Assembly (NCBI RefSeq): GCF_028553765.1
Contig: NZ_CP067134.1
Span: forward strand, 1,779,001-1,843,000
DNA: 64,000 bases
Source: Paracoccus stylophorae
Lineage (GTDB): Bacteria > Pseudomonadota > Alphaproteobacteria > Rhodobacterales > Rhodobacteraceae
Reading direction: 5' to 3'
A program made the translations under genes and the position numbers. The notes beneath the pieces were generated by a model. That model made no database searches. It had not been told where the DNA came from and saw nothing but the letters and a program-made list of their open reading frames with translations. Shown here in pieces: positions 2 to 13,538 of the stretch (the first letter of the stretch is position 1; each line of letters begins with the position of its first letter).

Positions 2-340
2 GGCATGATCGAACGCGGCATGGGCAGGCTGTTTCAGGATTTCTGGACCGATGTGGAACCCGATCTGAACCGTCTGGGCGATGACATGGCGGGTGCGCTG
101 TCGCGCATGGGGCCGGTGCTGAAGGATCTGTCGGTTCTGGTGGACGATCTGGGCAACTATCAGGCCCCGCAGCGGCTGGAAAACGGCGATATCCTGATTG
201 CGCGAAAACCGGGCGCCCCGCCGCCGCCGCCTATCGGCGACAATTTGCAGGATCTGACGGACCCCGATCAGGACGAGTCCGCGCCCGACTCCCCGCCCGC
301 CGTGCCGCGCGACCCGGACGCCCCCGAAATCGAGCTTTGA
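2..340 (+). CDS. C-terminal part of a small acidic, proline-rich hypothetical protein
   Basis: The reading frame is open to the left edge, so this is probably the 3' part of a gene whose start lies outside the window; the first internal ATG is at position 5. The visible part is an amphipathic helical stretch (residues about 1-50) followed by a Pro-rich linker and an acidic Asp/Pro tail. It resembles short exported Rhodobacterales proteins that are sometimes misnamed 'AAA+ family ATPase', but no ATPase motif is present. Its last 73 bases overlap the 3' end of the convergent sensor-exonuclease gene. I cannot assign a function. Confidence 0.55.
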   Translation, partial: GMIERGMGRLFQDFWTDVEPDLNRLGDDMAGALSRMGPVLKDLSVLVDDLGNYQAPQRLENGDILIARKPGAPPPPPIGDNLQDLTDPDQDESAPDSPPAVPRDPDAPEIEL

Positions 341-2286
341 ACGCCGCGCGCGGTGACCGGCAGATTGGCATCCTCGATCAGCCTGGCGTGACGCCGGCCC
401 TCGGCCACCGCCTCCTCGAACAGGGCGATGCCCTTGGCCTCCAGTGCGGGGATCAGTTGCAGGAACGCCTTGGCCGTGGCCAGCGTGTCGCCCATGGCGG
501 TGTGCCGGTCCTCGGGCGGGATGTCGATGCCCAGACGTTCGGTCAGCGCATCCAGCGTGTGCGGAACCGACCCGCCCCAGACCAGCGCCGACAGCAGGAC
601 CGTGTCCAGAACGCGATTGTCGAACATCGCCCCCGTCTCGGCGGCGGCGCGGCGCAGCATGCCCATGTCGAACGGCGCATTATGCGCGATCAGCACCGCA
701 TCCTCGGCAAAGTGATGAAACGCGGTCAGCGCGGCGGTCATGTCGGGCGCGTCGGCCACCATCTCGTCGGTGATGCGATGGATCGCGGTCGAGGCGGGCG
801 GAATCGGACGGCCCGGATTGACCAGCGTCTCGAACCGCTCGCCGGTCAGGCGGCCGCGCGCGATCCGGACGCCGGCGATCTGCACGATCCGGTCGGTGGG
901 CGACAGGCCGGTGGTTTCGGTGTCGAAGACCACGCAGGTCAGATCGGACAGCCGCGAAGAGGCCGCACCCCGGCCCGCCAGCGCGAAATCATAGGTCAGC
1001 CCGGTCCCCCCCGCCTGCCCCGGCGCCAGATGCAGCGGCAGGACCAGACGCGCCAGCGCGTCGCCCCTTTCCGGCCAGATGCCGGTGCCGTGGGTGGCAA
1101 GGATCTCGGTTCCCGACAGGTCGGGCTGCGCGGGATCGGGGGGCTGGGCCAGCCAGTCCTCAAGCCGGTCCATCGGCACCGCCGCGCCGTCCCATTCCAG
1201 CAGCAGACGCGCCTCGTCGGGGTCTTCCATCACCATCCGCAGACGCGGCTGAACCCCGTCCTCGCGCAGCCGGCCATCCAGCATCCGCAGCAGCCCGTTC
1301 ATCGGTCCGGCCTCGGCCAGCAGCAGGATGCGCGGCAGATCCATGGCCACGTCCAGCCCCGCCGCCAGTTCCGCCGGCAGCGCCCGCCCGGTCGAGGCGT
1401 CGGCCGACATGATCTCGGACAGGCGGCGCGTGGCCTTGGCCAGCCCGTGCCCCTCGTCCCGGATCGCCTGGGCCAGCGCCGGCGGGATCGGGCCTTCCAG
1501 CGCGTCCAGCATCGGCACCAGCGTGGCGGCGTGGCGGCGCAGCGCCTCCATCGTGTCGCGGGGGGCGGGACGCTGCGGCAGCCGGTCGCGCAGGATCAGC
1601 AGCGTGCCGTCGTCGATGCGCCGCATCCGGCCCGACAGCCTTGCCCCTTCGGTCGTCAGACAGACCAGATCGGTGGCCTCGACCCCCGCCGCGATCCGCG
1701 CCGCCGCCGCCTCCAGCGCGCCCGACAGGATGTGCCGGTCCAGCGGCCGGTCCAGCGCCAGCCGCGGCAGCAGCCGCGCGGCCGAGGCGTTGTAGAAGAC
1801 CACCCTGCCCTTGGCATCGGTCATCACCGCGCCCGATCCGAAATCGGCCAGGATCGATTCCAGCGTCGCCTTTTCGCGCGCCAGTTCGGCGGCGTGTTCC
1901 TGCACCGCCTCGGCCAGCGCCTCGGCGGTCCGTGCCCGCGCCTCGGCCGCATCGCGCGCCGCCGGGCCCAGATCCGCCAGATAGCGGGCATCGCTGACAT
2001 CGGGGGCCTGTCCGGTCCGCAGCCCGCCGGCCAGCGCCTCGATCGGGCGGGCGACGTTGCGGTCGAACAGGAACCAGACCCCGGTGATCAGCCCCACCGA
2101 GGCGAAACCGGCGATCAGCCCGGCCTGAAGCATCGGGTCCAGCGACCGGTCCAGCCCCACCCCCGCCGCGTCCAGACGCCGCGCGCCCACCCACAGCCCC
2201 AGCACCAGCGTCGCCAGAACCGTCGCCGCCAGCCCGGCAAAGATCAGCAGCACGCGCAGACGCAGGGACAGCCGTTGCAGCATCAC
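268..2286 (-). CDS. membrane-bound PAS sensor fused to a DEDDh 3'-5' exonuclease (DnaQ/epsilon-like)
   Basis: The protein has 672 residues. Two transmembrane helices (about 11-34 and 52-75) are followed by a HAMP-like/coiled-coil stretch (76-140) and a PAS-like domain (about 140-235). Next comes a segment resembling a worn-down histidine-kinase core (about 243-430), with no recognisable H-box or intact ATP lid. The C-terminal DnaQ-type exonuclease carries the full DEDDh set: D455 and E457 in FDTETTG, D540, H595 and D600. The start is GTG at 2286 (or ATG at 2283), overlapping the stop of the upstream response regulator by four bases (GTGA). DnaQ-family domains remove nucleotides from 3' ends, so this looks like a sensory scaffold with a nuclease as output. 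The gene ends the acetate-uptake cluster. The fusion is directly visible; the biological role is unknown. Confidence 0.85.
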   Translation of the reverse strand: MMLQRLSLRLRVLLIFAGLAATVLATLVLGLWVGARRLDAAGVGLDRSLDPMLQAGLIAGFASVGLITGVWFLFDRNVARPIEALAGGLRTGQAPDVSDARYLADLGPAARDAAEARARTAEALAEAVQEHAAELAREKATLESILADFGSGAVMTDAKGRVVFYNASAARLLPRLALDRPLDRHILSGALEAAAARIAAGVEATDLVCLTTEGARLSGRMRRIDDGTLLILRDRLPQRPAPRDTMEALRRHAATLVPMLDALEGPIPPALAQAIRDEGHGLAKATRRLSEIMSADASTGRALPAELAAGLDVAMDLPRILLLAEAGPMNGLLRMLDGRLREDGVQPRLRMVMEDPDEARLLLEWDGAAVPMDRLEDWLAQPPDPAQPDLSGTEILATHGTGIWPERGDALARLVLPLHLAPGQAGGTGLTYDFALAGRGAASSRLSDLTCVVFDTETTGLSPTDRIVQIAGVRIARGRLTGERFETLVNPGRPIPPASTAIHRITDEMVADAPDMTAALTAFHHFAEDAVLIAHNAPFDMGMLRRAAAETGAMFDNRVLDTVLLSALVWGGSVPHTLDALTERLGIDIPPEDRHTAMGDTLATAKAFLQLIPALEAKGIALFEEAVAEGRRHARLIEDANLPVTARGVQSSISGASGSRGTAGGESGADSS

Positions 2287-2648
2287 GTATCCAGCAGACG
2301 TGCCATCTCGGCGCGCAGCTCGTCCAGCTCGAATGGCTTGGCGATAAAGCCGTCGGCGCCCAGTGCCAGCCCCTTGCGCCGTTCCACGACCGAGCCGCGC
2401 GCCGTCATCATCAGCACCCGCACATCCTTCAGCGCCGGATCGGCGCGCACGTCCTGCACGATCTGATAGCCCGACACGTCGGGCAGCATCACGTCCAGCA
2501 GCACCAGATCGGGCTGCGTCTCGCGGATGCGCGCGACCGCGCCCTCGCCGGTTGCCAGCCTTGCGTGGCTGTGGCCGTCGCGCGTCAGCAGGAAATCCAG
2601 CGCGACGGCAATATTGTCCTCATCCTCGATCACCAGTATCTCGGCCAT
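2283..2648 (-). CDS. single-domain response regulator (CheY-like receiver)
   Basis: This 121-residue protein is a receiver domain only. The phosphorylation machinery is intact: acidic pair near residues 8-11, phosphoacceptor D52 in LLDVMLP, T82, and K104 in AKPFE. No DNA-binding or enzymatic output follows. I chose ATG 2648 (MAEILVIEDED) because the receiver fold begins there; a longer frame would add an unrelated leader overlapping the upstream membrane-protein gene. It is translationally coupled to the sensor-exonuclease gene (GTGA overlap), which suggests the two proteins act together. The nuclease partner lacks a normal kinase core, so the phosphodonor may be another kinase or a small phosphodonor. 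Confidence 0.9.
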   Translation of the reverse strand: MAEILVIEDEDNIAVALDFLLTRDGHSHARLATGEGAVARIRETQPDLVLLDVMLPDVSGYQIVQDVRADPALKDVRVLMMTARGSVVERRKGLALGADGFIAKPFELDELRAEMARLLDT

Positions 2649-3147
2649 CCTCCCCCTCCCCATCGCAGACCAGGGCAAAGGCCGGATCATCCGCCCCCGC
2701 CGGTGTCCATTCGCCGTGCGCGGGCCGGATCCTGCCCTCGGCGCAGTCGAATTGCTGCGGCACGACCAGCGTCTGTCCCCGACGCTCGACCAGCATGATC
2801 CGGGCCTGTCTTATGCCCGACACCTCGTCGCTGATCGTCGCCGGGTCCAGCGCGGCAAAGCGCACCGCGACCGGCGCCAGATAGGTCCAGGGCGCCCAGG
2901 GCTGGCTGTCGCGCCCGATCAGCAGCATCCGCGTATCCTCGGGCAGCCGGCCCTGGGCGCGGGCAAGCCACGCATAATCGTTCCAGACCGAATATCCGAT
3001 CATCGCCAGCCCGACGCCGGCCGGCAGCAGCCACAGCGGCAGGACCACACCCGCCTTGCGCAGCGCGTGCATGCCTGCATACAGCACCGCCGCCATCCCG
3101 ACGCCCACCGCGATCACGCCCAGCAATTCGACGCCGACACCCGTCAT
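2620..3147 (-). CDS. conserved two-TM membrane protein of unknown function
   Basis: The protein has 175 residues with two N-terminal membrane helices (about 8-29 and 36-55). A soluble domain of about 115 residues follows, with no motif I recognise, and the C-terminal tail is charged. The gene overlaps the stop of the CNB/CBS protein upstream (ATGA at 3144-3147) and the start of the response regulator downstream, so it is embedded in the acetate-module operon. The soluble domain is probably a small sensory or adaptor module; that is inference from position only. Confidence 0.75.
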   Translation of the reverse strand: MTGVGVELLGVIAVGVGMAAVLYAGMHALRKAGVVLPLWLLPAGVGLAMIGYSVWNDYAWLARAQGRLPEDTRMLLIGRDSQPWAPWTYLAPVAVRFAALDPATISDEVSGIRQARIMLVERRGQTLVVPQQFDCAEGRIRPAHGEWTPAGADDPAFALVCDGEGEDGRDTGDRG

Positions 3148-4952
3148 CCCAGCATGCCCTTTCCGTGTCCCACCGCCGACTGCATCCCGCGCACGACGAC
3201 AAAGGCGTCGCGCAGATGGCTGCGCTCGAAATCCGGCAGATCGGCGGGCGACAGATAGTTGTCGGGTTTGCGGCCGGTGTTGACCTCGTGCGCCTGGCTG
3301 TCCAGCCGCATGGTCTGGATCAGATCATAGGCCGCGATCAGATCGCGCGCGCCGCTGCCCGAGATCACGCCCTTCGCCTCGGCCTCCTGCAACCTTGCGC
3401 GGGTGTTCACCGGCGTCAGCCGCCCCTGCAACGCATAGACGCGGGCCAGATCGGTGACCGGCACGACGCCGTTATGCTTCATGTCGATATGGTGCCGATG
3501 CTCGCCCGAGCGGATCGTGGCGAAGCCGCCGATCAGCCCCAGCGGCGGGCGATGCTTCAACGCGTTCGAAATCATGTGCGCCACGAAGATCGAGTTTTTC
3601 GAGGCCATCTGCAACGTGTCCTGCTGCAACCCCGCCAGCAGCGTGGCATCGCCGCCGATGGCGCGCAGGTCGAACATGACGCTGGCCAGCATCTGCGCCT
3701 CGGGGCTGGGACGGTCGATCCAGTCGCGGAAATAGCGTTCCCAGACATTGCGCGGCTGGCGCCAGCGCGGGTTTGTGGCCATCATGTCGCCGGGACAATA
3801 GACATAGCCGCATTCGTGCAGCCCGTCGCTGACAAAGCGGGCCAGCTCGTCGAAATAGGGGTGCGCCGGGTCGGTGCCCTCGGCCAGGATCAGGCAGTTG
3901 TCCTGATCCGACACGCCGGTCTGTTCCTGCCGCCCCTGCGATCCGCACGCCGCCCACAGCCACGCGGCCGGCGCCGGGCCAAGCCGGTCCTGCGCCATGT
4001 CCAGCAGCCGCCGTGTCACCGCGTCGGCGATATCGGTGATCATGCGGGTGATGACCTCGTGACGCTGGCGCGCGCGCACCAGCTGCGTCAGCAGGCGCGG
4101 GATGCGCGCCGTCGTCTGCGCCATCTGGGCGACGGTCTCTGCCTCGGCCAGGTCGCGGATCACGGCCGAGGCGGTGATCGCCTGGAACCGGGTCAGGTCG
4201 GTCTGGCTGATCATGCCGATGAAGCGCCCGTCCTCGATCACCGGCAGATGGCCGATATGGGATTCCAGCATGATGTTCAGCACATCGTATCCCAGCGCCG
4301 TGGGCGGCAGGGTGATCGGGTCGGTCGTCATCACCTCGCCCACCGGGCGGTTCAGGTCGCGGCCCTCGGCGACCACGCGGTTCGACATGTCGCGGATCGT
4401 GACCAGCCCGGTCAGCCTGCCGTCGCGGGTGATGCCCAGGCTGCTGATATTGGCCTCGCGCATGATCCGGGCGGCCTCGATGATCGGCGTCTCGGCGGGA
4501 CAGCTTTGCGGATCGCGGGTCAGCAGATCGCCCACTTTCAGCATCGCGATGTCGGGCGCACGTTCCGACAGGGTCCGGCCCCGGTCGAAGAACCGCGCCA
4601 CCGCCCGGTGGGCGCCGATCAGGCGCATCACCTCGGCCCGCGGCAGCATCAGCACCACCGATTCCTCGGCCGCGCGTGCCGATGTGACCGCCGCGCCGTC
4701 GCGCAGCAGCCCGCGTTCACCGAAGGAATTGCCCGGACCCAGTTCCGACACCGAATCGCCGTTGCAATCGGTGACCGAGACGCGGCCCGACCGGATCAGA
4801 TACAGCCCGGACAGCGAATCGCCGGCGTCATAGATCGCCTCGTCGGCGGCATAGGTCCTGCGGCTGAAGGAACCGGCGACACGCGCCAGCTCGTCCTGCG
4901 GCAGGCTGTCATAGGGGTGGACCGTGGCGATGAAGTCGGCCGTGTTGGACAT
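3144..4952 (-). CDS. cyclic nucleotide-binding / double CBS / DUF294 nucleotidyltransferase protein
   Basis: Domains in order are an N-terminal cyclic nucleotide-binding domain (about 12-125), two CBS motifs (about 140-265) that typically bind adenine nucleotides, and a DUF294-type nucleotidyltransferase-like domain with GSQGRQEQ followed by DQDN (about 335-355). A helical substrate-binding-like domain completes the 602 residues. Start ATG 4952 (MSNTADF) was chosen because a GGGA Shine-Dalgarno sequence lies about 8 bases upstream; in-frame TTG and ATG codons further up are poorly placed. Genes of this type accompany VC_2705-type acetate symporters and DUF4212 proteins in many proteobacteria. 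It probably reads the energy or nucleotide state and regulates uptake or signalling; the transferred nucleotide and target are unknown. Confidence 0.9.
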   Translation of the reverse strand: MSNTADFIATVHPYDSLPQDELARVAGSFSRRTYAADEAIYDAGDSLSGLYLIRSGRVSVTDCNGDSVSELGPGNSFGERGLLRDGAAVTSARAAEESVVLMLPRAEVMRLIGAHRAVARFFDRGRTLSERAPDIAMLKVGDLLTRDPQSCPAETPIIEAARIMREANISSLGITRDGRLTGLVTIRDMSNRVVAEGRDLNRPVGEVMTTDPITLPPTALGYDVLNIMLESHIGHLPVIEDGRFIGMISQTDLTRFQAITASAVIRDLAEAETVAQMAQTTARIPRLLTQLVRARQRHEVITRMITDIADAVTRRLLDMAQDRLGPAPAAWLWAACGSQGRQEQTGVSDQDNCLILAEGTDPAHPYFDELARFVSDGLHECGYVYCPGDMMATNPRWRQPRNVWERYFRDWIDRPSPEAQMLASVMFDLRAIGGDATLLAGLQQDTLQMASKNSIFVAHMISNALKHRPPLGLIGGFATIRSGEHRHHIDMKHNGVVPVTDLARVYALQGRLTPVNTRARLQEAEAKGVISGSGARDLIAAYDLIQTMRLDSQAHEVNTGRKPDNYLSPADLPDFERSHLRDAFVVVRGMQSAVGHGKGMLG

Positions 4953-5018
4953 CCCGGACATTCCCAGCAAAAAGGTTGAGGATGCCGCGCCCCCGGCAAA
5001 AGGGGCGCGGCGGTCTTG

Positions 5019-6830
5019 TCAGTGTGCCTGGGCCTGGCCGGCGCCGCGCGGAACGCGGATCGATTCGACCAGTTCCTGGATCTCGACCGGCGGCTCTTCG
5101 GTCGCGTTCGAGACCACATAGGCGACCACGAAGTTGATGATCGCGCCGACCACCCCGAACGAGGCGGGCGAGATGCCAAGCACCCATTCCGCAGGGACGT
5201 CGTTCAGCGAGTTCGTCCCCGAGATGAAGAACCATCCCTTGTAAAGGAAGATATAGACCAGCGTGGACAGGATACCGGCCAGCATCCCCGCGATCGCACC
5301 CTGCTTGTTGATGCGCTTGCTGAAGATGCCCATCATCAGGACAGGGAAGATTGAGCTTGCGGCAAGGCCGAAGGCCAGCGCCACGGTCTGCGCCGCAAAG
5401 CCCGGCGGGTTCAGCCCCAAGATCGTGGCAACCAGGATCGAGACCGCCATCGACACGCGTGCCGTCAGCAATTCGCCCCTTTCGCTGATACCGGGATTGA
5501 GCGAGCCCTTGATCAGGTCGTGACTGACCGCCCCCGAGATCGCCAGCAGCAGCCCCGCCGCCGTGGACAAAGCGGCCGCCAGACCGCCCGCCGCGACGAT
5601 GGCGATCACCCAGCCCGGCAGGTTGGCGATTTCCGGGTTGGCCAGCACCATGATGTCGTTGTTCACGGTGGTCAGCTCGTTGCCTTGCAGGTTCTGCTCG
5701 GCAACCAGCGCCGCGACCTGTTCGTCATCGGTGGCCGCGTCGTTATAGTACTGGATCTGGCCGTCGCCGTTCTTGTCTTCCCAGTCCAGAAGACCGGTGA
5801 CCTGCCAGTTGCGCATCCACTGCTTGTCCGGGTCGTTCTGGATCGATTCCAGCGAGACGGCCGGCTGGCTGAACGTGTCGCCCGCGCGCGCGCCCGGCCA
5901 CATGGTCGTGGTCAGGTTGAAGCGCGACATCGAGCCCACGGCCGGCGCCACGGTATAAAGCAGCGCGATGAACACCAGTGCCCACCCCGCCGATTTGCGC
6001 GCATCCGACACTTTCGGCACGGTGAAGAAACGGATGATGACATGCGGCAGACCTGCGGTGCCGATCATCAGCGCCAGCGTGAACAGCACCATGTTCAGCG
6101 TGGTGCCGTGATGGCCGGTATAGGACCTGAAGCCCAGATCGGTCACCACCTGGTCCAGCTTGACCAGGAACTTGGTGTCGCTTCCGCTCAGCGTGCCGAA
6201 CATGCCCGTCTGCGGCAGCACGTGCCCGGTCAGTTGCAGCGCGATGAACACCGCCGGGATCGTATAGGCGATGATCAGCACGATATACTGCGCCACTTGC
6301 GTATAGGTGATGCCCTTCATGCCGCCCAGAACCGAATAGGCGAACACCATCGCCGCACCGATCCACAGCCCGGTCGAATTCGACACTTCCAGATAGCGCG
6401 AGAAGGTGACGCCCACGCCGGTCATCTGCCCGATCACATAGGTGATCGAGATGATCAGCAGACAGATCACGCCGATGATGCGCGCGGTCTTGGAATAGAA
6501 CCGGTCGCCGATGAATTCCGGCACGGTGAACTTGCCGAACTTGCGCAGATACGGCGCCAGCAGCATCGCCAGCAGGACATAGCCGCCGGTCCAGCCCATC
6601 AGATAGGTCGAGTTGTCATAGCCGGTGAAGGCGATCAGACCCGCCATCGAGATGAACGAGGCCGCCGACATCCAGTCGGCCGCCGTCGCCATGCCGTTCA
6701 TGACCGGGCTGACGCCGCGGTTGGCGGCATAGAATTCCGCCGTCGATCCCGCACGGGCCCAGATCGCGATGCCGATATAGATCGCGAAGCTGATGCCGAT
6801 GAAGATCAGGTTAAGTGTGAACTGGCTCAT
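5019..6830 (-). CDS. sodium:solute symporter, acetate/monocarboxylate type (VC_2705 subfamily)
   Basis: This 603-residue polytopic membrane protein of the SSS family has about 13 hydrophobic helices. It is related to the acetate permease ActP and probably imports acetate or other short monocarboxylates with Na+. An extramembrane insertion of roughly 100 residues (about 305-400) separates two helices and contains an EF-hand-like loop (D352, N354, D356, G357, I359). A good Shine-Dalgarno sequence (GAGGGGG) precedes ATG 6830. Twelve bases upstream ends the DUF4212 gene, whose product is the usual small partner of this symporter type; acs lies further upstream, so transport and activation of acetate are adjacent. 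Confidence 0.92.
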   Translation of the reverse strand: MSQFTLNLIFIGISFAIYIGIAIWARAGSTAEFYAANRGVSPVMNGMATAADWMSAASFISMAGLIAFTGYDNSTYLMGWTGGYVLLAMLLAPYLRKFGKFTVPEFIGDRFYSKTARIIGVICLLIISITYVIGQMTGVGVTFSRYLEVSNSTGLWIGAAMVFAYSVLGGMKGITYTQVAQYIVLIIAYTIPAVFIALQLTGHVLPQTGMFGTLSGSDTKFLVKLDQVVTDLGFRSYTGHHGTTLNMVLFTLALMIGTAGLPHVIIRFFTVPKVSDARKSAGWALVFIALLYTVAPAVGSMSRFNLTTTMWPGARAGDTFSQPAVSLESIQNDPDKQWMRNWQVTGLLDWEDKNGDGQIQYYNDAATDDEQVAALVAEQNLQGNELTTVNNDIMVLANPEIANLPGWVIAIVAAGGLAAALSTAAGLLLAISGAVSHDLIKGSLNPGISERGELLTARVSMAVSILVATILGLNPPGFAAQTVALAFGLAASSIFPVLMMGIFSKRINKQGAIAGMLAGILSTLVYIFLYKGWFFISGTNSLNDVPAEWVLGISPASFGVVGAIINFVVAYVVSNATEEPPVEIQELVESIRVPRGAGQAQAH

Positions 6831-6842
6831 GTTTGTTCCCCC

Positions 6843-7100
6843 TCACTCGTCCACGCCGTGGTCGCGGTCGAGTGTGTTCATCCGCCACGCATAGAAGAAA
6901 ATCAGCACGATGAAGACCAGGATCGAGCCTTGCTGCGCGAACCAGAAGCCCAGATCGGTGCCGCCGATCCTGATGCCCGACAGCATCGGCCGCAGGATGA
7001 TCGCAAATCCATAGGACACCAGCGCCCAGATCGCGATGCAGATATAGATGATCTTCAGATTGGCCTGCCAATAGGCGTTCGATGATTGTCTGTCACTCAT
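6843..7100 (-). CDS. DUF4212 small membrane subunit of the symporter
   Basis: The protein has 85 residues with two membrane helices (about 17-37 and 50-70) and an aromatic, YWxxN-like N-terminus, as in DUF4212 (putative solute:sodium symporter small subunit). GAAGGAC lies directly upstream of ATG 7100. It is encoded 12 bases before the large symporter and is probably co-translated with it. DUF4212 proteins nearly always accompany VC_2705-type symporters; the exact contribution to transport is not established. Confidence 0.9.
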   Translation of the reverse strand: MSDRQSSNAYWQANLKIIYICIAIWALVSYGFAIILRPMLSGIRIGGTDLGFWFAQQGSILVFIVLIFFYAWRMNTLDRDHGVDE

Positions 7101-7234: not shown

Positions 7235-9190
<1,956 letters not shown>

Positions 9191-9479
9191 GTAATCCCCT
9201 CCTCGAAGCTGTGTCCCGGCCTGCGGATCGGGCCGGAAAACCGGCGCGGCGGGGACACTTGGCAAACCCGAGGGAATGTTAATCACATGATGGGTAGAAT
9301 GTTAAGTATTTTTTAAATAAGGATTTTTCTGTAAATTTATTCACGGAATCCTGATGCAAATTGTAAATGCTTCACAACCCCGTCATCGGTCGCGGCTTGC
9401 ACGCGCAGCGCCCGCCGCAATAGCAAACGCCGCCGCGGGACCTGACCCGCGACGGCGCCCCTGCCCGATGCCGGGCGCG
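9191..9479 (-). promoter_or_regulatory. AT-rich acs upstream region, no gene seen
   Basis: This 289-base stretch holds no convincing coding sequence. Between about 9275 and 9375 the base composition drops sharply to AT-rich, with A/T runs, in contrast to the GC-rich surroundings. The acs promoter and possible activator sites are expected here. TTTGC-type half sites occur on the minus strand near 9355-9362, but they are too weak to call an operator. Confidence 0.5.
9428..9457 (-). terminator. Rho-independent terminator of the beta-helix gene
   Basis: On the minus strand a 12-bp stem with one T·G pair and a 6-base loop is followed by TTTGCTA. It starts 22 bases after the beta-helix gene stop codon at 9480 and probably ends that transcript before the acs promoter region. 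Confidence 0.65.
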
Positions 9480-11774
9480 TCAGGTCGCCCTGTCCATCCG
9501 CGCGTACACGCAGACCTTGCCCTTGACCCGCGTGCTCCAGTTCAGGCGCAACTGCCGCTTGCTGGTTCCCACGAACCCCTGCACCCACGGCATGGCATCG
9601 ACGGTCTTGCCCGAGGCGTCGGTGATCGGCCCCTCCAGCACCACCGATTCCACCGACTTGGCCCAGCCCTGGAACGGCAGGCCCTGGATGACCGGCAGCG
9701 TCCACGCGTTCGAGGCCGAATTCTGGCTGTGCTGGATCATCAGCGGGTTCGATACGTAATGCGTGATGCCGTTGAACGTGTTCCCCTCGAACTGGATGTT
9801 GCGCATGTTCAGGTAATCCAGGTCCGCGATCGAGGTATCGACGCGCTCGATCCTGTCGATGCGGTTGACCAGCGACTTGAAGACGTTTCCCACGACGCTG
9901 AGGCCGTGAATGTAATGCCCCGCACCATAGGGCTTCACCGTCAGCCAGGTGAACCACGGCACCGTGCGGCTGCACAGGCAGGTGTTGCCGGTCAGGGTCA
10001 GCCCGCCAAAGCTGTATTCGTTGCCGTCGAAATCGGGACGCGCGCTGTGTTCGTTCGTCCACTCGATCGAGGCGTTGTCGATATAGTTGCCCGACACCGT
10101 CGTCTGCACATTGGTCTGGGTCAGCACCAGCCCGGCAAAGCGCAGCCCGTCGCCGCTGCCGTCGCCCTGAAACCAGTGATTGCCGCTGATGATATGGCCC
10201 CCGCCCGCGGCGACCATGAAATGCGCGAACCGGACAAAGCGGTTGTTGCGCATCTTCACGTCGTTGGCGTTGACGTTGATGGCGATGGTCTTGCGCTGCT
10301 GCGCAGGCAGGCTCATCTCGTTGGACAGGAACTGGCAGCGGTCGATCAGCATGTCCTGACAGCCCCGCCCGATCGAGGTGATCGCCCGGTCCCGCGGCCT
10401 CGTCAGATAGCAGTCGCGCACCGCAATCATCTCGCCATCCGCCGGCAGCATGATCGCGCTGCCGACGCCCTGACACACCAAGTCCAGATCGACGAAATTC
10501 AGCCGGTCCAGCCGGTCCAGCCCCGAAAAATCGAACATATAGCGATAACGCTCGAAGCTAAAGCTGCGCCGGCCCGCCCCGCCATACAGCGGCTGCGACA
10601 GGTTCAGCCAGCCCTCGCCGACATTCTTGCCGTTGACATAGACCTCGCGCCCGACGCCGTTGCCGCTGATCCGGCTGCCGACCTCGATCGCGGCGACATT
10701 GGTCACGTTCGTCAGCCGCGTCGGGCGGGCCGGGTCATAGCTGCCCGAACTGGTCCAGGTGCCGGTTTTCCAGGCCGGCCCGTCCACCAGCACGATACTG
10801 CCGTTGCAGATCACGCGGCGGTTGGAAAACCCCGACAGATCGGGGGCGACATGGGTGATCACCATGGGTTCGGTCAGTTCGATCCGCCGGCCGCGCAGAT
10901 CCAGCGAGACATGGTCGGTATAGCCGAACAGCGCCTGCAACGCCTTTTTCAGGCCAAGCGTTTCATCGGCGAACGCATCGGCATAGGTCGGAAAATCGAA
11001 GCTTTCCAGAAACGAGACCCGCGTCGCATCGGGCGTGGTCAGCCGGCCCTTGAACCGGATCGGACTGCGGATGCCGATATCGCCCGAAATGAAGAAATTC
11101 CCCTCGGGCACAAGGATCCAGCCACCATTGGCGGCGTTGTCGGCGGCGATGAACGCCGCCCGGTCATTGGTGACGCCATCGCCCACCGCGCCGAAATCGC
11201 GCACATCGACCCAGTCGATCAGGCTGGGCACGAACGCGGCCGTGACATCCTCGATCCGGATCGACTCGATGCGGATCGCGCCGCCATTGGGTCCGATCAG
11301 ATCAAGCCCGAAATGCCCGAAGACCGGTTTCGTGCCCCACGCCATGTCCACGCCGCCGCGCGCGCCGACCCCGACGATGGCGCTGACCTCGACCACATCG
11401 CCGAAATGGCGCAGCTGCACCGTCGGGCCGGTCTCGGTCAGGCCGGTGACGTGGTTGCGCCCGCCATCGCCCGCCCAGCCCGCGATGCGCACGCCGCACA
11501 GCGCGCCGGCCACCGCCTTCACGCGGGCCGAGACGCGCAGATAGACGCCGGGGATCATCGGCGTCTCGCCCATGAACCGGACGCTGGTCGTCGTCTGCTG
11601 CTTCAGGATTTCCAGGCAGGGGCCGAAAACCTGATCCGACGGATGGATGGACGCGTTGTCCGCATTCGCCCATGTCGCCGAGCCCGATCTGCCGTCGCTG
11701 CGCGACCACGCGTTCAGACCCGCGCGGAAGGCCGGGGGCATCAGCAAAAGGCCGTTCGTGATCGCAATGTTCAT
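9480..11774 (-). CDS. right-handed beta-helix protein, pectate lyase / GH28-related fold
   Basis: The protein has 764 residues. Residues 191-211 carry the pectate-lyase-3 entry motif (VRDFGAVGDGVTNDRAAF) that starts the right-handed parallel beta-helix. The following 500 residues show repeated short strands with N/D/G turns such as SGN and GNT. Residues 1-185 form a separate N-terminal beta-rich domain resembling carbohydrate-binding or tail-fibre modules. There is no obvious signal peptide. GAGGAG lies upstream of ATG 11774. The gene stands alone between acs and lysS with its own terminator. Such proteins act on or bind polysaccharides, or occur as spike/fibre parts; the substrate cannot be read from sequence. 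Confidence 0.82.
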   Translation of the reverse strand: MNIAITNGLLLMPPAFRAGLNAWSRSDGRSGSATWANADNASIHPSDQVFGPCLEILKQQTTTSVRFMGETPMIPGVYLRVSARVKAVAGALCGVRIAGWAGDGGRNHVTGLTETGPTVQLRHFGDVVEVSAIVGVGARGGVDMAWGTKPVFGHFGLDLIGPNGGAIRIESIRIEDVTAAFVPSLIDWVDVRDFGAVGDGVTNDRAAFIAADNAANGGWILVPEGNFFISGDIGIRSPIRFKGRLTTPDATRVSFLESFDFPTYADAFADETLGLKKALQALFGYTDHVSLDLRGRRIELTEPMVITHVAPDLSGFSNRRVICNGSIVLVDGPAWKTGTWTSSGSYDPARPTRLTNVTNVAAIEVGSRISGNGVGREVYVNGKNVGEGWLNLSQPLYGGAGRRSFSFERYRYMFDFSGLDRLDRLNFVDLDLVCQGVGSAIMLPADGEMIAVRDCYLTRPRDRAITSIGRGCQDMLIDRCQFLSNEMSLPAQQRKTIAINVNANDVKMRNNRFVRFAHFMVAAGGGHIISGNHWFQGDGSGDGLRFAGLVLTQTNVQTTVSGNYIDNASIEWTNEHSARPDFDGNEYSFGGLTLTGNTCLCSRTVPWFTWLTVKPYGAGHYIHGLSVVGNVFKSLVNRIDRIERVDTSIADLDYLNMRNIQFEGNTFNGITHYVSNPLMIQHSQNSASNAWTLPVIQGLPFQGWAKSVESVVLEGPITDASGKTVDAMPWVQGFVGTSKRQLRLNWSTRVKGKVCVYARMDRAT

Positions 11775-11951: not shown

Positions 11952-13538
11952 TCAGGCCGGCGCGTCCAGCAATTCGCCCGCCAGCGCGCGTTCGATCAGC
12001 GCGCGCGTCTCGTCGATGCCGTAAAGCGCGATGAAGCCGCCAAAGCGCGGCCCCTGATCGGCGCCCAGCAACACCTGATACAGCGTTGCGAACCAGTCGC
12101 GCAGCGGCTCGAACCCGTGTTCGCGCCCGACCGCAAAGACCATGGATTGCAACGCCTCGGGGTCTGCGGGCTGATCCCATGCCGCCAGCCGCCCCGCCAG
12201 ATCCTCCAGCGCGCGTCGTTCGATTTCCGTCGGCGCACGGAACGTCCGCGCCGGTGCCACGAAATCCTCGAAATAACGCAGCGCGAAACCGGCCGCCTGA
12301 TCCAGACCCGGATGGGTTTCGGGGCTGGCCTCGGGCGCATAGCGGCGGATAAAGCCCCACAACCCGTCCTTGCCGCTGGCGCCCGCGACCGAGGCGAGGT
12401 TCAGAAGCATCTGGAACGGCACGACCATGTCCGAGGCGGGAACGTCGCCGCCATGAATATGCCAGACCGGGTTGGCCGCCTGCTGTTCGGGCGTCTGATC
12501 GGGAAAGGCGCGCAATTGCTGATGGTATTCGTCCACCGCCTTCGGAATCACGTCGAAATGCATCCGCTTGGCCGATTTCGGCTTCTGATACATGAAATAG
12601 GACAGGCTTTCGGTCGCGGCATAGGTCAGCCATTCGTCGATCGACAGGCCGTTGCCCTTGGATTTGCTGATCTTCTGGCCGTCCTGGTCCAGAAACAGCT
12701 CATAGATGAAATGTTCGGGCGCGCGCCCGCCCAGGATCTCGCAGATGCGGTCATAGATCGGCGTGTTGGTGCTGTGGTCCTTGCCATACATCTCGAAATC
12801 CACGTCCAGCGCGGCCCATCGCGCGCCGAAATCCGGCTTCCATTGCAGCTTGACCTGCCCGCCGGTGACCGGCAGCGTCAGTTCCTGTCCATCCTCGTCG
12901 AAGGTGACGGTGCCGTTCTTCGCATCGACATGCTTGATCGGCACATACAGAACCCGGCCCGTGGTCGGGCTGATCGGCAGGAAACAGCTATAGGTCTGCT
13001 GCCGTTCCTCGCGCAGGCTGGCCAGCATCACCTCCATGATCGCGTCATAGCGTTCCGCCGCGCGCAGAAGCGTGTCGTCGAACCGGCCCGAGCGGTAGAA
13101 ATCGGTCGCGCTGATGAACTCGTATTCGAACCCGAACGTGTCCAGGAACCTGCGCAGCATGGCGTTGTTGTGGGCGCCGAAACTGTCATGCTCGCCGAAC
13201 GGATCGGGCACGCTGGTCAGCGGCTTTTGCAGATGCTCGCGCAGCATGTCCTGTCGGGGCACGTTGTCGGGCACCTTGCGCATGCCGTCCATGTCGTCCG
13301 AAAAGCAGATCAGCCGCGTCGGAATGTCGCTGATGACCTCGAAGGCGCGGCGGATCATCGTGGTCCGCGCCACCTCTCCGAACGTGCCGATATGGGGCAG
13401 GCCGGACGGGCCGTAACCCGTCTCGAACAGCACGAACCCCTTTTCGGGGTCCTTCTTCTCATAGCGTTTCAGCACCCGGCGCGCCTCTTCGAACGGCCAG
13501 GCCTTCGATGTCATCGCGGCGTCGCGCAGGGTGGTCAT
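11952..13538 (-). CDS. lysS: lysine--tRNA ligase, class I
   Basis: This class I LysRS (also called LysK) charges tRNA-Lys. Its 528 residues match the family. The HIGH-type signature appears as HIGTF near residue 50 and the KMSKS motif as KISKSKGNG near residue 295. Alphaproteobacteria characteristically use this archaeal-type enzyme instead of class II LysRS. ATG 13538 is preceded by AGGAG. It is divergent from the TerB-like gene across a 93-base spacer holding a perfect inverted repeat. Confidence 0.97.

Follow-up and report, generated by a model that had tools for sequence, protein, structure and literature searches.

A membrane-anchored protein with a dead histidine-kinase core and a DEDDh exonuclease domain, co-inherited with a single-domain receiver in acetate-uptake operons

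What might a protein with the layout of a membrane-bound histidine kinase do if it ends in a nuclease? This question is raised by a locus in a 64,000-nucleotide stretch of the Paracoccus stylophorae genome (assembly GCF_028553765.1, contig NZ_CP067134.1, positions 1,779,001 to 1,843,000), here called the window, where the gene for such a protein follows that of a single-domain response regulator (receiver) in an operon for acetate uptake. The original prediction, made from the letters of the window, had described membrane helices, a degenerate kinase core, a complete DEDDh exonuclease and a coupled intact receiver, and as an observation this is confirmed by the analysis reported below.

An intact-looking nuclease on a dead kinase core

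The gene products and domains in question are the following, with residue numbers for the exonuclease protein and the evidence for each assignment in brackets.

2283..2648, minus strand: single-domain response regulator (receiver) with D52 and K104 (Pfam, alignment)
268..2286, minus strand: membrane-anchored PAS / pseudo-histidine-kinase / DEDDh exonuclease, 672 amino acids
2071..2265, minus strand: N-terminal membrane region, residues 8-72, two predicted hydrophobic helices (sequence, model helices)
1582..1866, minus strand: PAS-like domain, residues 141-235 (weak Pfam PAS match, relatives above cutoff, model)
1402..1560, minus strand: degenerate DHp helical hairpin, residues 243-295, phosphoacceptor column at Glu247 (alignment, hhalign, model)
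1027..1386, minus strand: degenerate CA (ATPase-like) domain, residues 301-420, N and G boxes gone (alignment, hhalign)
451..939, minus strand: DEDDh 3'-5' exonuclease domain, residues 450-612 (Pfam, conserved residues, model)

The open reading frame of the exonuclease encodes 672 amino acids from GTG 2286, or 671 from ATG 2283. Its AlphaFold model, built with 66 sequences, has a mean pLDDT of 87.1 and shows these parts: long helices at 8-40 and 45-90, the secondary structure of a PAS-like domain at 152-234, a hairpin of two helices (243-261/269-295), an alpha/beta domain extending to residue 420, and the DEDDh domain at 450-617. The predicted membrane region, with the two proposed N-terminal helices, was read from the hydrophobic sequence and the model helices. 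The Pfam match to PAS is weak in the window protein (residues 142-173, E 0.018) and above the cutoff in relatives (L142, L225 and L101; loci are cited by our own numbers), and the model agrees with it. The HAMP-like region that had also been proposed is without any Pfam hit.

The C-terminal domain matches Pfam RNase_T at residues 452-608 (E 2.9e-34), with weaker matches to other members of the exonuclease clan. The catalytic residues D455, E457, D540, H595 and D600, correctly named in the original prediction, are all present. Orthologs keep them: an alignment of 70 family members, among them the window protein, shows no change at any of the five (L058 and L073 had been set aside in advance as broken or partial, and are missing from the trees too), and the set is retained in 113 of 114 sequences of a wider alignment, the sole miss (L210) being a split gene. 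The window protein is thus an intact-looking nuclease with a putative 3'-5' exonuclease activity. Among the matches listed, its similarity in sequence and fold is to DnaQ, PolC, ExoX, RNase T and similar enzymes, and the closest relatives with a source name are Paracoccus proteins. The oligoribonuclease Orn is absent from these sequence and fold matches, from which the substrate class cannot be read. The interpretation that had been put on the locus, a signal-gated nuclease that could trim RNA or nucleotide second messengers, is therefore supported in part: the conserved DEDDh residues, the dead core and the widespread association described below stand behind it, while its oligoribonuclease-like aspect is not favoured by matches that do not settle the substrate.

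Between the PAS-like and nuclease domains, no HisKA or HATPase_c match was obtained from Pfam in the window protein at E values up to 1, and the best matches among scanned relatives are below threshold (HisKA at E 0.1 in a Thauera relative, HATPase_c at E 0.15 in L100). A profile of residues 236-425 from 40 relatives was compared by hhalign with the cores of 13 SLC5-type kinases, and the two aligned with a probability of 98.0% (E 1.9e-13); taken by part, the DHp alone gave 96.1% and the CA domain alone 86.8% (E 4.3e-6). Control alignments of the receiver, the symporter and the DUF294 protein gave at most 0.4%, the reversed profile 0.2%, and 20 column shuffles at most 1.3%, the reversed and shuffled controls ruling out a chance likeness to kinases. 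Foldseek matched the full model to WalK (2.0e-9), ThkA with TrrA (4.7e-6) and HK853 with RR468 (8.8e-5). The 50 matches listed by VIA-align are mainly exonucleases that cover model residues 438-645, so the kinase part was not probed by them.

Where intact kinases have HELRTPLTSIRA, the exonuclease proteins aligned with them have sequences such as EGFRAPIANLRA. The phosphoacceptor histidine is found in none of the 83 proteins that keep its column, which holds Glu in 44 and Asp in 25 (69/83), and the H-box pattern occurs in none of 80 exonuclease open reading frames, those lacking the DHp included. The N, G1 and G2 boxes for ATP are gone, as judged by eye in the alignment with intact kinases. 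Thr or Asn four residues after the His column makes the phosphatase-competent HisKA motif; here 69 of the 83 have Ala, Arg or Gly at that position. The middle region is a true but dead DHp-CA kinase fold, in keeping with the degenerate core first proposed, and an ordinary kinase with an accidental fusion is ruled out, as the H-box is in none of the relatives examined.

Joint presence and absence of receiver and DHp

The receiver, of 121 amino acids, matches Response_reg only in Pfam (E 2.1e-24). Its TGA stop (2285-2283) and the ATG of the exonuclease (2283-2281) have one base in common, in line with the predicted coupling. All 44 receivers that were aligned, a few of them not beside the exonuclease, have the equivalents of D52 and K104, and the acidic pocket is broken in only one of the 44 (L053).

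From the family search, covering 149 genomes, the 71 best among the matches listed (E values of 1.4e-46 and below), not counting the window's own genome, were fetched; the remaining genomes gave weaker matches only, and one gave none. The orthologs have a long form, with a receiver directly upstream, and a short form, mostly of ~470 amino acids and lacking residues ~240-430, with none. In 72 window-type operons, receiver and full DHp coincide without exception (29 have both, 43 neither), and the trait changes at least 5 times on a tree of the symporter and DUF294 protein, markers that lie outside the trait, from these 72 loci. When loci from named genomes are included, the states agree in 106 of the 108 operons of this enlarged set, with 48 having both, 58 neither, 2 the DHp only (L211 and L230) and 0 the receiver only. 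A DHp remnant is present in 4 of the 58 receiver-less operons (L051, L052, L096 and L097), where 42-86% of 65 DHp positions are missing and the CA part is retained; these four were scored as lacking the DHp in both counts. On supported branches, 7 independent pairs were obtained, with a mean of 5.5 concordant, 1.4 showing no difference and 0 discordant (median p 0.031, range 0.031-0.0625). Operon labels were entered by hand and then recomputed with the same outcome. The tree was a quick one, and the counts cannot separate gain from loss; the receiver-less forms probably arose by loss, to judge from the four remnants and from the presence of both elements in relatives well beyond the family. 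Since the receiver gene lies upstream of membrane and PAS parts that are retained, and the DHp on the far side of them, losing receiver and DHp would take two separate deletions.

Full-length relatives are found in Alpha-, Beta- and Gammaproteobacteria, in Magnetococcales and in records labelled Deltaproteobacteria and Nitrospirota. A class-wide search of 337 genomes, from which 60 loci were picked by hand among the matches listed (DnaQ-looking ones being left out), and a scan of named genomes, in which 80 loci were kept of at least 492 relatives, contributed to a wider set of 103 loci together with L100 and L101. The enlarged set of operons omits L237 and L243, which duplicate L077 and L070; the split gene L210 and L268 are in the count of 103 and not in the tree of the enlarged set, and L228 (a fragment), L257 (at a contig end) and L271 (a gene in pieces) were kept in it. 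Alignment A1 holds 33 of 120 proteins among the matches listed. The receiver is immediately upstream in 60 of the 103 loci, and all 60 have a full DHp; another 27 have no DHp, none of them with an upstream receiver, and 3 have a partial DHp and no receiver. The perfect rule of the 72 operons was weakened by this wider scan, the exceptions being weighed below. The association of sensor, nuclease and receiver, for which a check in orthologs had been proposed, is thus widespread and co-inherited. This joint presence and absence was missing from the original prediction, as were the CbrA-like kinase that lies beside the pair in many relatives and the DUF294 fusion, to which we now turn.

Linked kinases and operon neighbours

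An SLC5-type kinase (a CbrA-like transporter/kinase) is encoded in the same locus in 31 of the 60 receiver-upstream loci, which are spread across Proteobacteria, for example in Thauera (L260), Azonexus (L276), Colwellia (L279) and Ectothiorhodospira (L225), and additionally in the window-type L268. In L100, from the window's own genus, there are 4-base overlaps between the genes for kinase, receiver and exonuclease. The linked kinases carry the H-box pattern in 32 of 32 cases and the N-box pattern in 31 of 32 (the exception is L244); the kinase gene of L232 is split over two frames. HisKA and HATPase_c are present in 5 of 5 kinases scanned together, one of which is the window genome's own, unlinked kinase, and in that of L100, whose residues 7-467 match PDB 10ED (E 1.5e-70), a CbrXA SLC5-STAC structure according to a preprint (PMC13022988). 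L215 has a receiver gene on either side of its kinase-exonuclease pair, the first 4.1 kb before the exonuclease start and the second 2.35 kb after it. In the window's genome, the unlinked kinase is found at this position.

L110:7810-11235 (G000 C1, about 1.466-1.469 Mb): SLC5-type histidine kinase

It is preceded by an open reading frame (L110:6435-7745) that appears by eye to encode an XRE-type regulator, and no exonuclease match was found in the stretch around it.

The operon on the minus strand has the order acs, DUF4212, symporter, DUF294, 175-amino-acid protein, receiver, exonuclease, and its acs, DUF4212 and VC_2705-family symporter genes, all on the same strand, substantiate the acetate-uptake context that had been proposed. 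The genes upstream of the receiver are listed below.

7235..9286, minus strand: acetyl-CoA synthetase, acs (TIGR02188, 1023.2 bits)
6843..7100, minus strand: DUF4212 symporter small subunit (profile matches)
5019..6830, minus strand: sodium/solute symporter, VC_2705 family (TIGR03648, E 2.1e-246)
3144..4970, minus strand: cNMP-binding / CBS / DUF294 nucleotidyltransferase with a GS-x10-D-x-D motif (Pfam, motif)
2620..3147, minus strand: 175-amino-acid protein between DUF294 and receiver, no Pfam hit, present in window-type operons

Of the 60 loci taken from the class-wide search, 12 have a related exonuclease and DUF294 in a single open reading frame, as listed here.

L175, L176, L178, L180, L185, L188-L192, L197, L198: exonuclease-DUF294 single open reading frames, DEDDh domain followed by DUF294

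RNase_T, CBS, DUF294 and DUF294_C were found in 4 of 4 fusions scanned. The GS-x10-D-x-D motif, which we take to be a nucleotidyltransferase signature, is kept in all 12 fusions and in the DUF294 protein of the window. DUF294_C has been grouped with the C-terminal domains of GlnD and GlnE in a survey (PMC3710099). Because exonuclease-DUF294 fusions exist in other lineages, the two proteins probably act on a shared target. The 175-amino-acid protein (2620-3147) has an N-terminal hydrophobic stretch and is an unexplained part of the acetate gene set. Beyond the operon, a 764-amino-acid protein (9480-11774, minus strand) with a pectate-lyase-like stretch (PF12708) adjoins a class I lysyl-tRNA synthetase (11952-13538).

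A proposed nuclease-output pathway, its rivals and known systems

The domain fold, the loss of kinase residues, the intact nuclease and receiver residues, the co-inheritance of receiver and DHp and the kinase linkage in relatives can be joined in a two-component pathway with a nuclease as its output, running from a kinase through the phosphorylated receiver and its docking on the dead DHp to a change in the DEDDh nuclease. We hold this pathway to be somewhat better than an even bet; its phosphoryl source in this organism, the docking, the gating, and the activity and substrate of the nuclease are the parts that we infer. A histidine kinase elsewhere in the cell would phosphorylate the single-domain receiver, a role for which the CbrA-like SLC5 transporter/kinase encoded next door would be the candidate in relatives; the donor in the window's genome is a guess. 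The phosphorylated receiver would then dock on the membrane protein at its dead DHp hairpin, where the phosphoacceptor His is missing, as might be expected by analogy with the precedent of DivL and DivK. Docking, together with membrane and PAS input, could move the C-terminal DEDDh nuclease, which would sit beside the acetate symporter, or change its dimer state. The joint inheritance of nuclease and receiver points to a possible direct switching of the nuclease by a nutrient signal, and not via gene expression.

Several points weigh against this pathway. The window's operon encodes no kinase, and the one full-length SLC5-type kinase match in its genome is unlinked and has its own single-domain receiver, 48% identical to that of the window. 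A full DHp without a receiver immediately upstream is found in 13 of the 103 loci: two of these (L144 and L215) hold a receiver elsewhere in the locus, and for L277 a close one lies elsewhere in the genome (172 bits), whereas no close receiver was found genome-wide for L239, L240, L266, L270, L272 and L273 (best 94 bits) or for L211 and L230 (best 97 bits); the other two are L101 and L257, the latter cut by a contig end. Many relatives lack both DHp and receiver, so gating is dispensable for the basic job of the nuclease. Two loci (L152 and L153) have a receiver and an SLC5 kinase near a short nuclease without the DHp, and that receiver therefore has another target there. Mutual information between receiver and exonuclease, calculated from 87 pairs (effective number 61), gave a weak coevolution signal in which shared ancestry is still contained, and it was not leaned on: strong pairs (z above 2.5) make up 4.9% between DHp helix 1 and receiver helix 1, 4.4% between the linker and receiver beta5-alpha5 and 1.2-3.2% in other classes, and PAS and CA residues occur among the highest-scoring individual pairs. 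In Pseudomonas putida, deletion of the gene for a soluble homolog, pp_0353, caused no growth defect on succinate or acetate in the experiments described (PMC9927547).

The joint inheritance could also arise without any contact, if receiver and pseudokinase were mere neighbours in the acetate operon and their shared presence or absence a by-product of DNA changes there. The adjacency of the genes fits this account, as does the number of independent pairs on supported branches, just 7, of which a mean of 1.4 show no DHp difference; but the two deletions required around the retained membrane and PAS parts tell against it, as does the rarity of a full DHp without a receiver in window-type operons (2/108), and we consider it unlikely. 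Co-inheritance fits any direct binding, however, including one in which the pseudokinase acts as a controller that buffers or sequesters the phosphorylated receiver, as a sink or as a competitor for the SLC5 kinase, while the nuclease is constitutive. The overlapping kinase, receiver and exonuclease genes of L100 are compatible with such a role, which we nevertheless find rather improbable: the residues found four after the His column make phosphatase activity unlikely, and the conserved nuclease residues would be left without a part in signalling.

The nuclease itself could be a DnaQ-family exonuclease of the ordinary sort, serving repair or proofreading, that is tethered to the membrane by chance. 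Its nearest folds are the PolC, DnaQ and ExoX exonucleases, and the names of relatives include DNA polymerase-3 subunit epsilon, yet the protein scores 99.3 bits against the DnaQ equivalog TIGR01406 (cutoff 222.7 bits), for which the same genome has a true DnaQ at a separate locus (L281, 273.5 bits), and its operon context in many Proteobacteria is acetate uptake and activation with DUF294; on these grounds an ordinary repair role seems very improbable. A further reading, to which only a small chance is given, casts DUF294 as the writer of a nucleotide mark and the receiver-gated DEDDh enzyme as its eraser. The writer, GlnD/GlnE-like and with CBS and cNMP sensors, would add nucleotides either to a protein, such as the symporter or Acs, or to the 3' ends of RNA, and the eraser would strip them once the signal of the transporter-kinase came through the receiver; if true, carbon uptake would be under a nucleotidylation switch controlled by a two-component system.

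If the proposed pathway from receiver to nuclease is right, the nutrient signal of a transporter-like kinase acts directly on a membrane nuclease, bypassing transcription, and an unexplained set of acetate-symporter genes (DUF294, exonuclease and the 175-amino-acid protein) becomes one testable pathway. It would provide a further natural case, beside DivL, of a dead histidine kinase as a receiver reader, here with an enzyme attached and with a make-up simple enough to be reconstituted.

A pseudokinase-exonuclease or a receiver-gated nuclease of this kind was not found in the open-licence literature, among the matches listed by title and abstract opening, and by term counts the letters 'nuclease' appear nowhere in the main text of papers on RpuS/R and CrbS/R (PMC9100948, PMC5715377). 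The parts and the docking logic are already known, and the nuclease output was not found described. Among the closest known systems is the operon of PP_0353/PP_0354 in P. putida, where an RNase_T-family exonuclease and a CBS protein are under MxtR/ErdR control and pp_0353 is tied to pyruvate use (PMC9927547); the passages on PP_0353 describe a putative nuclease, with no mention of membrane, PAS, pseudokinase or receiver parts. The P. aeruginosa PAO1 homologs lie beside actP and yjcH in the cluster PA3232-PA3235, which is reported to be up about 16-fold on propionate (PMC9765439). The window protein shares its catalytic fold and residues with DnaQ, PolC and ExoX, but is below the DnaQ equivalog cutoff and fused to a signalling module.

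CrbS/CrbR (MxtR/ErdR) and CbrA/CbrB likewise have a transporter-fused kinase, with a role in acetate metabolism for CrbS/R, and the kinase of L100 is CbrA-like. CrbR and CbrB are described as DNA-binding regulators, CrbR being of the LuxR type, whereas the window receiver has no output domain and its partner is a nuclease. The nearest parallel for the docking step is DivL/DivK of Caulobacter, which shares a dead phosphoacceptor site, a DHp-CA fold with PAS and a single-domain receiver as partner: DivL, a pseudokinase with Tyr replacing His, detects phosphorylated DivK without adding or removing phosphate, and its DHp-CA is often missing in lineages where DivK is absent (PMC4211667). DivL is described as keeping the other kinase motifs and controlling the CckA pathway, whereas in the window-type protein the N and G boxes are gone as well, the dead site is mostly acidic and a nuclease is covalently attached.

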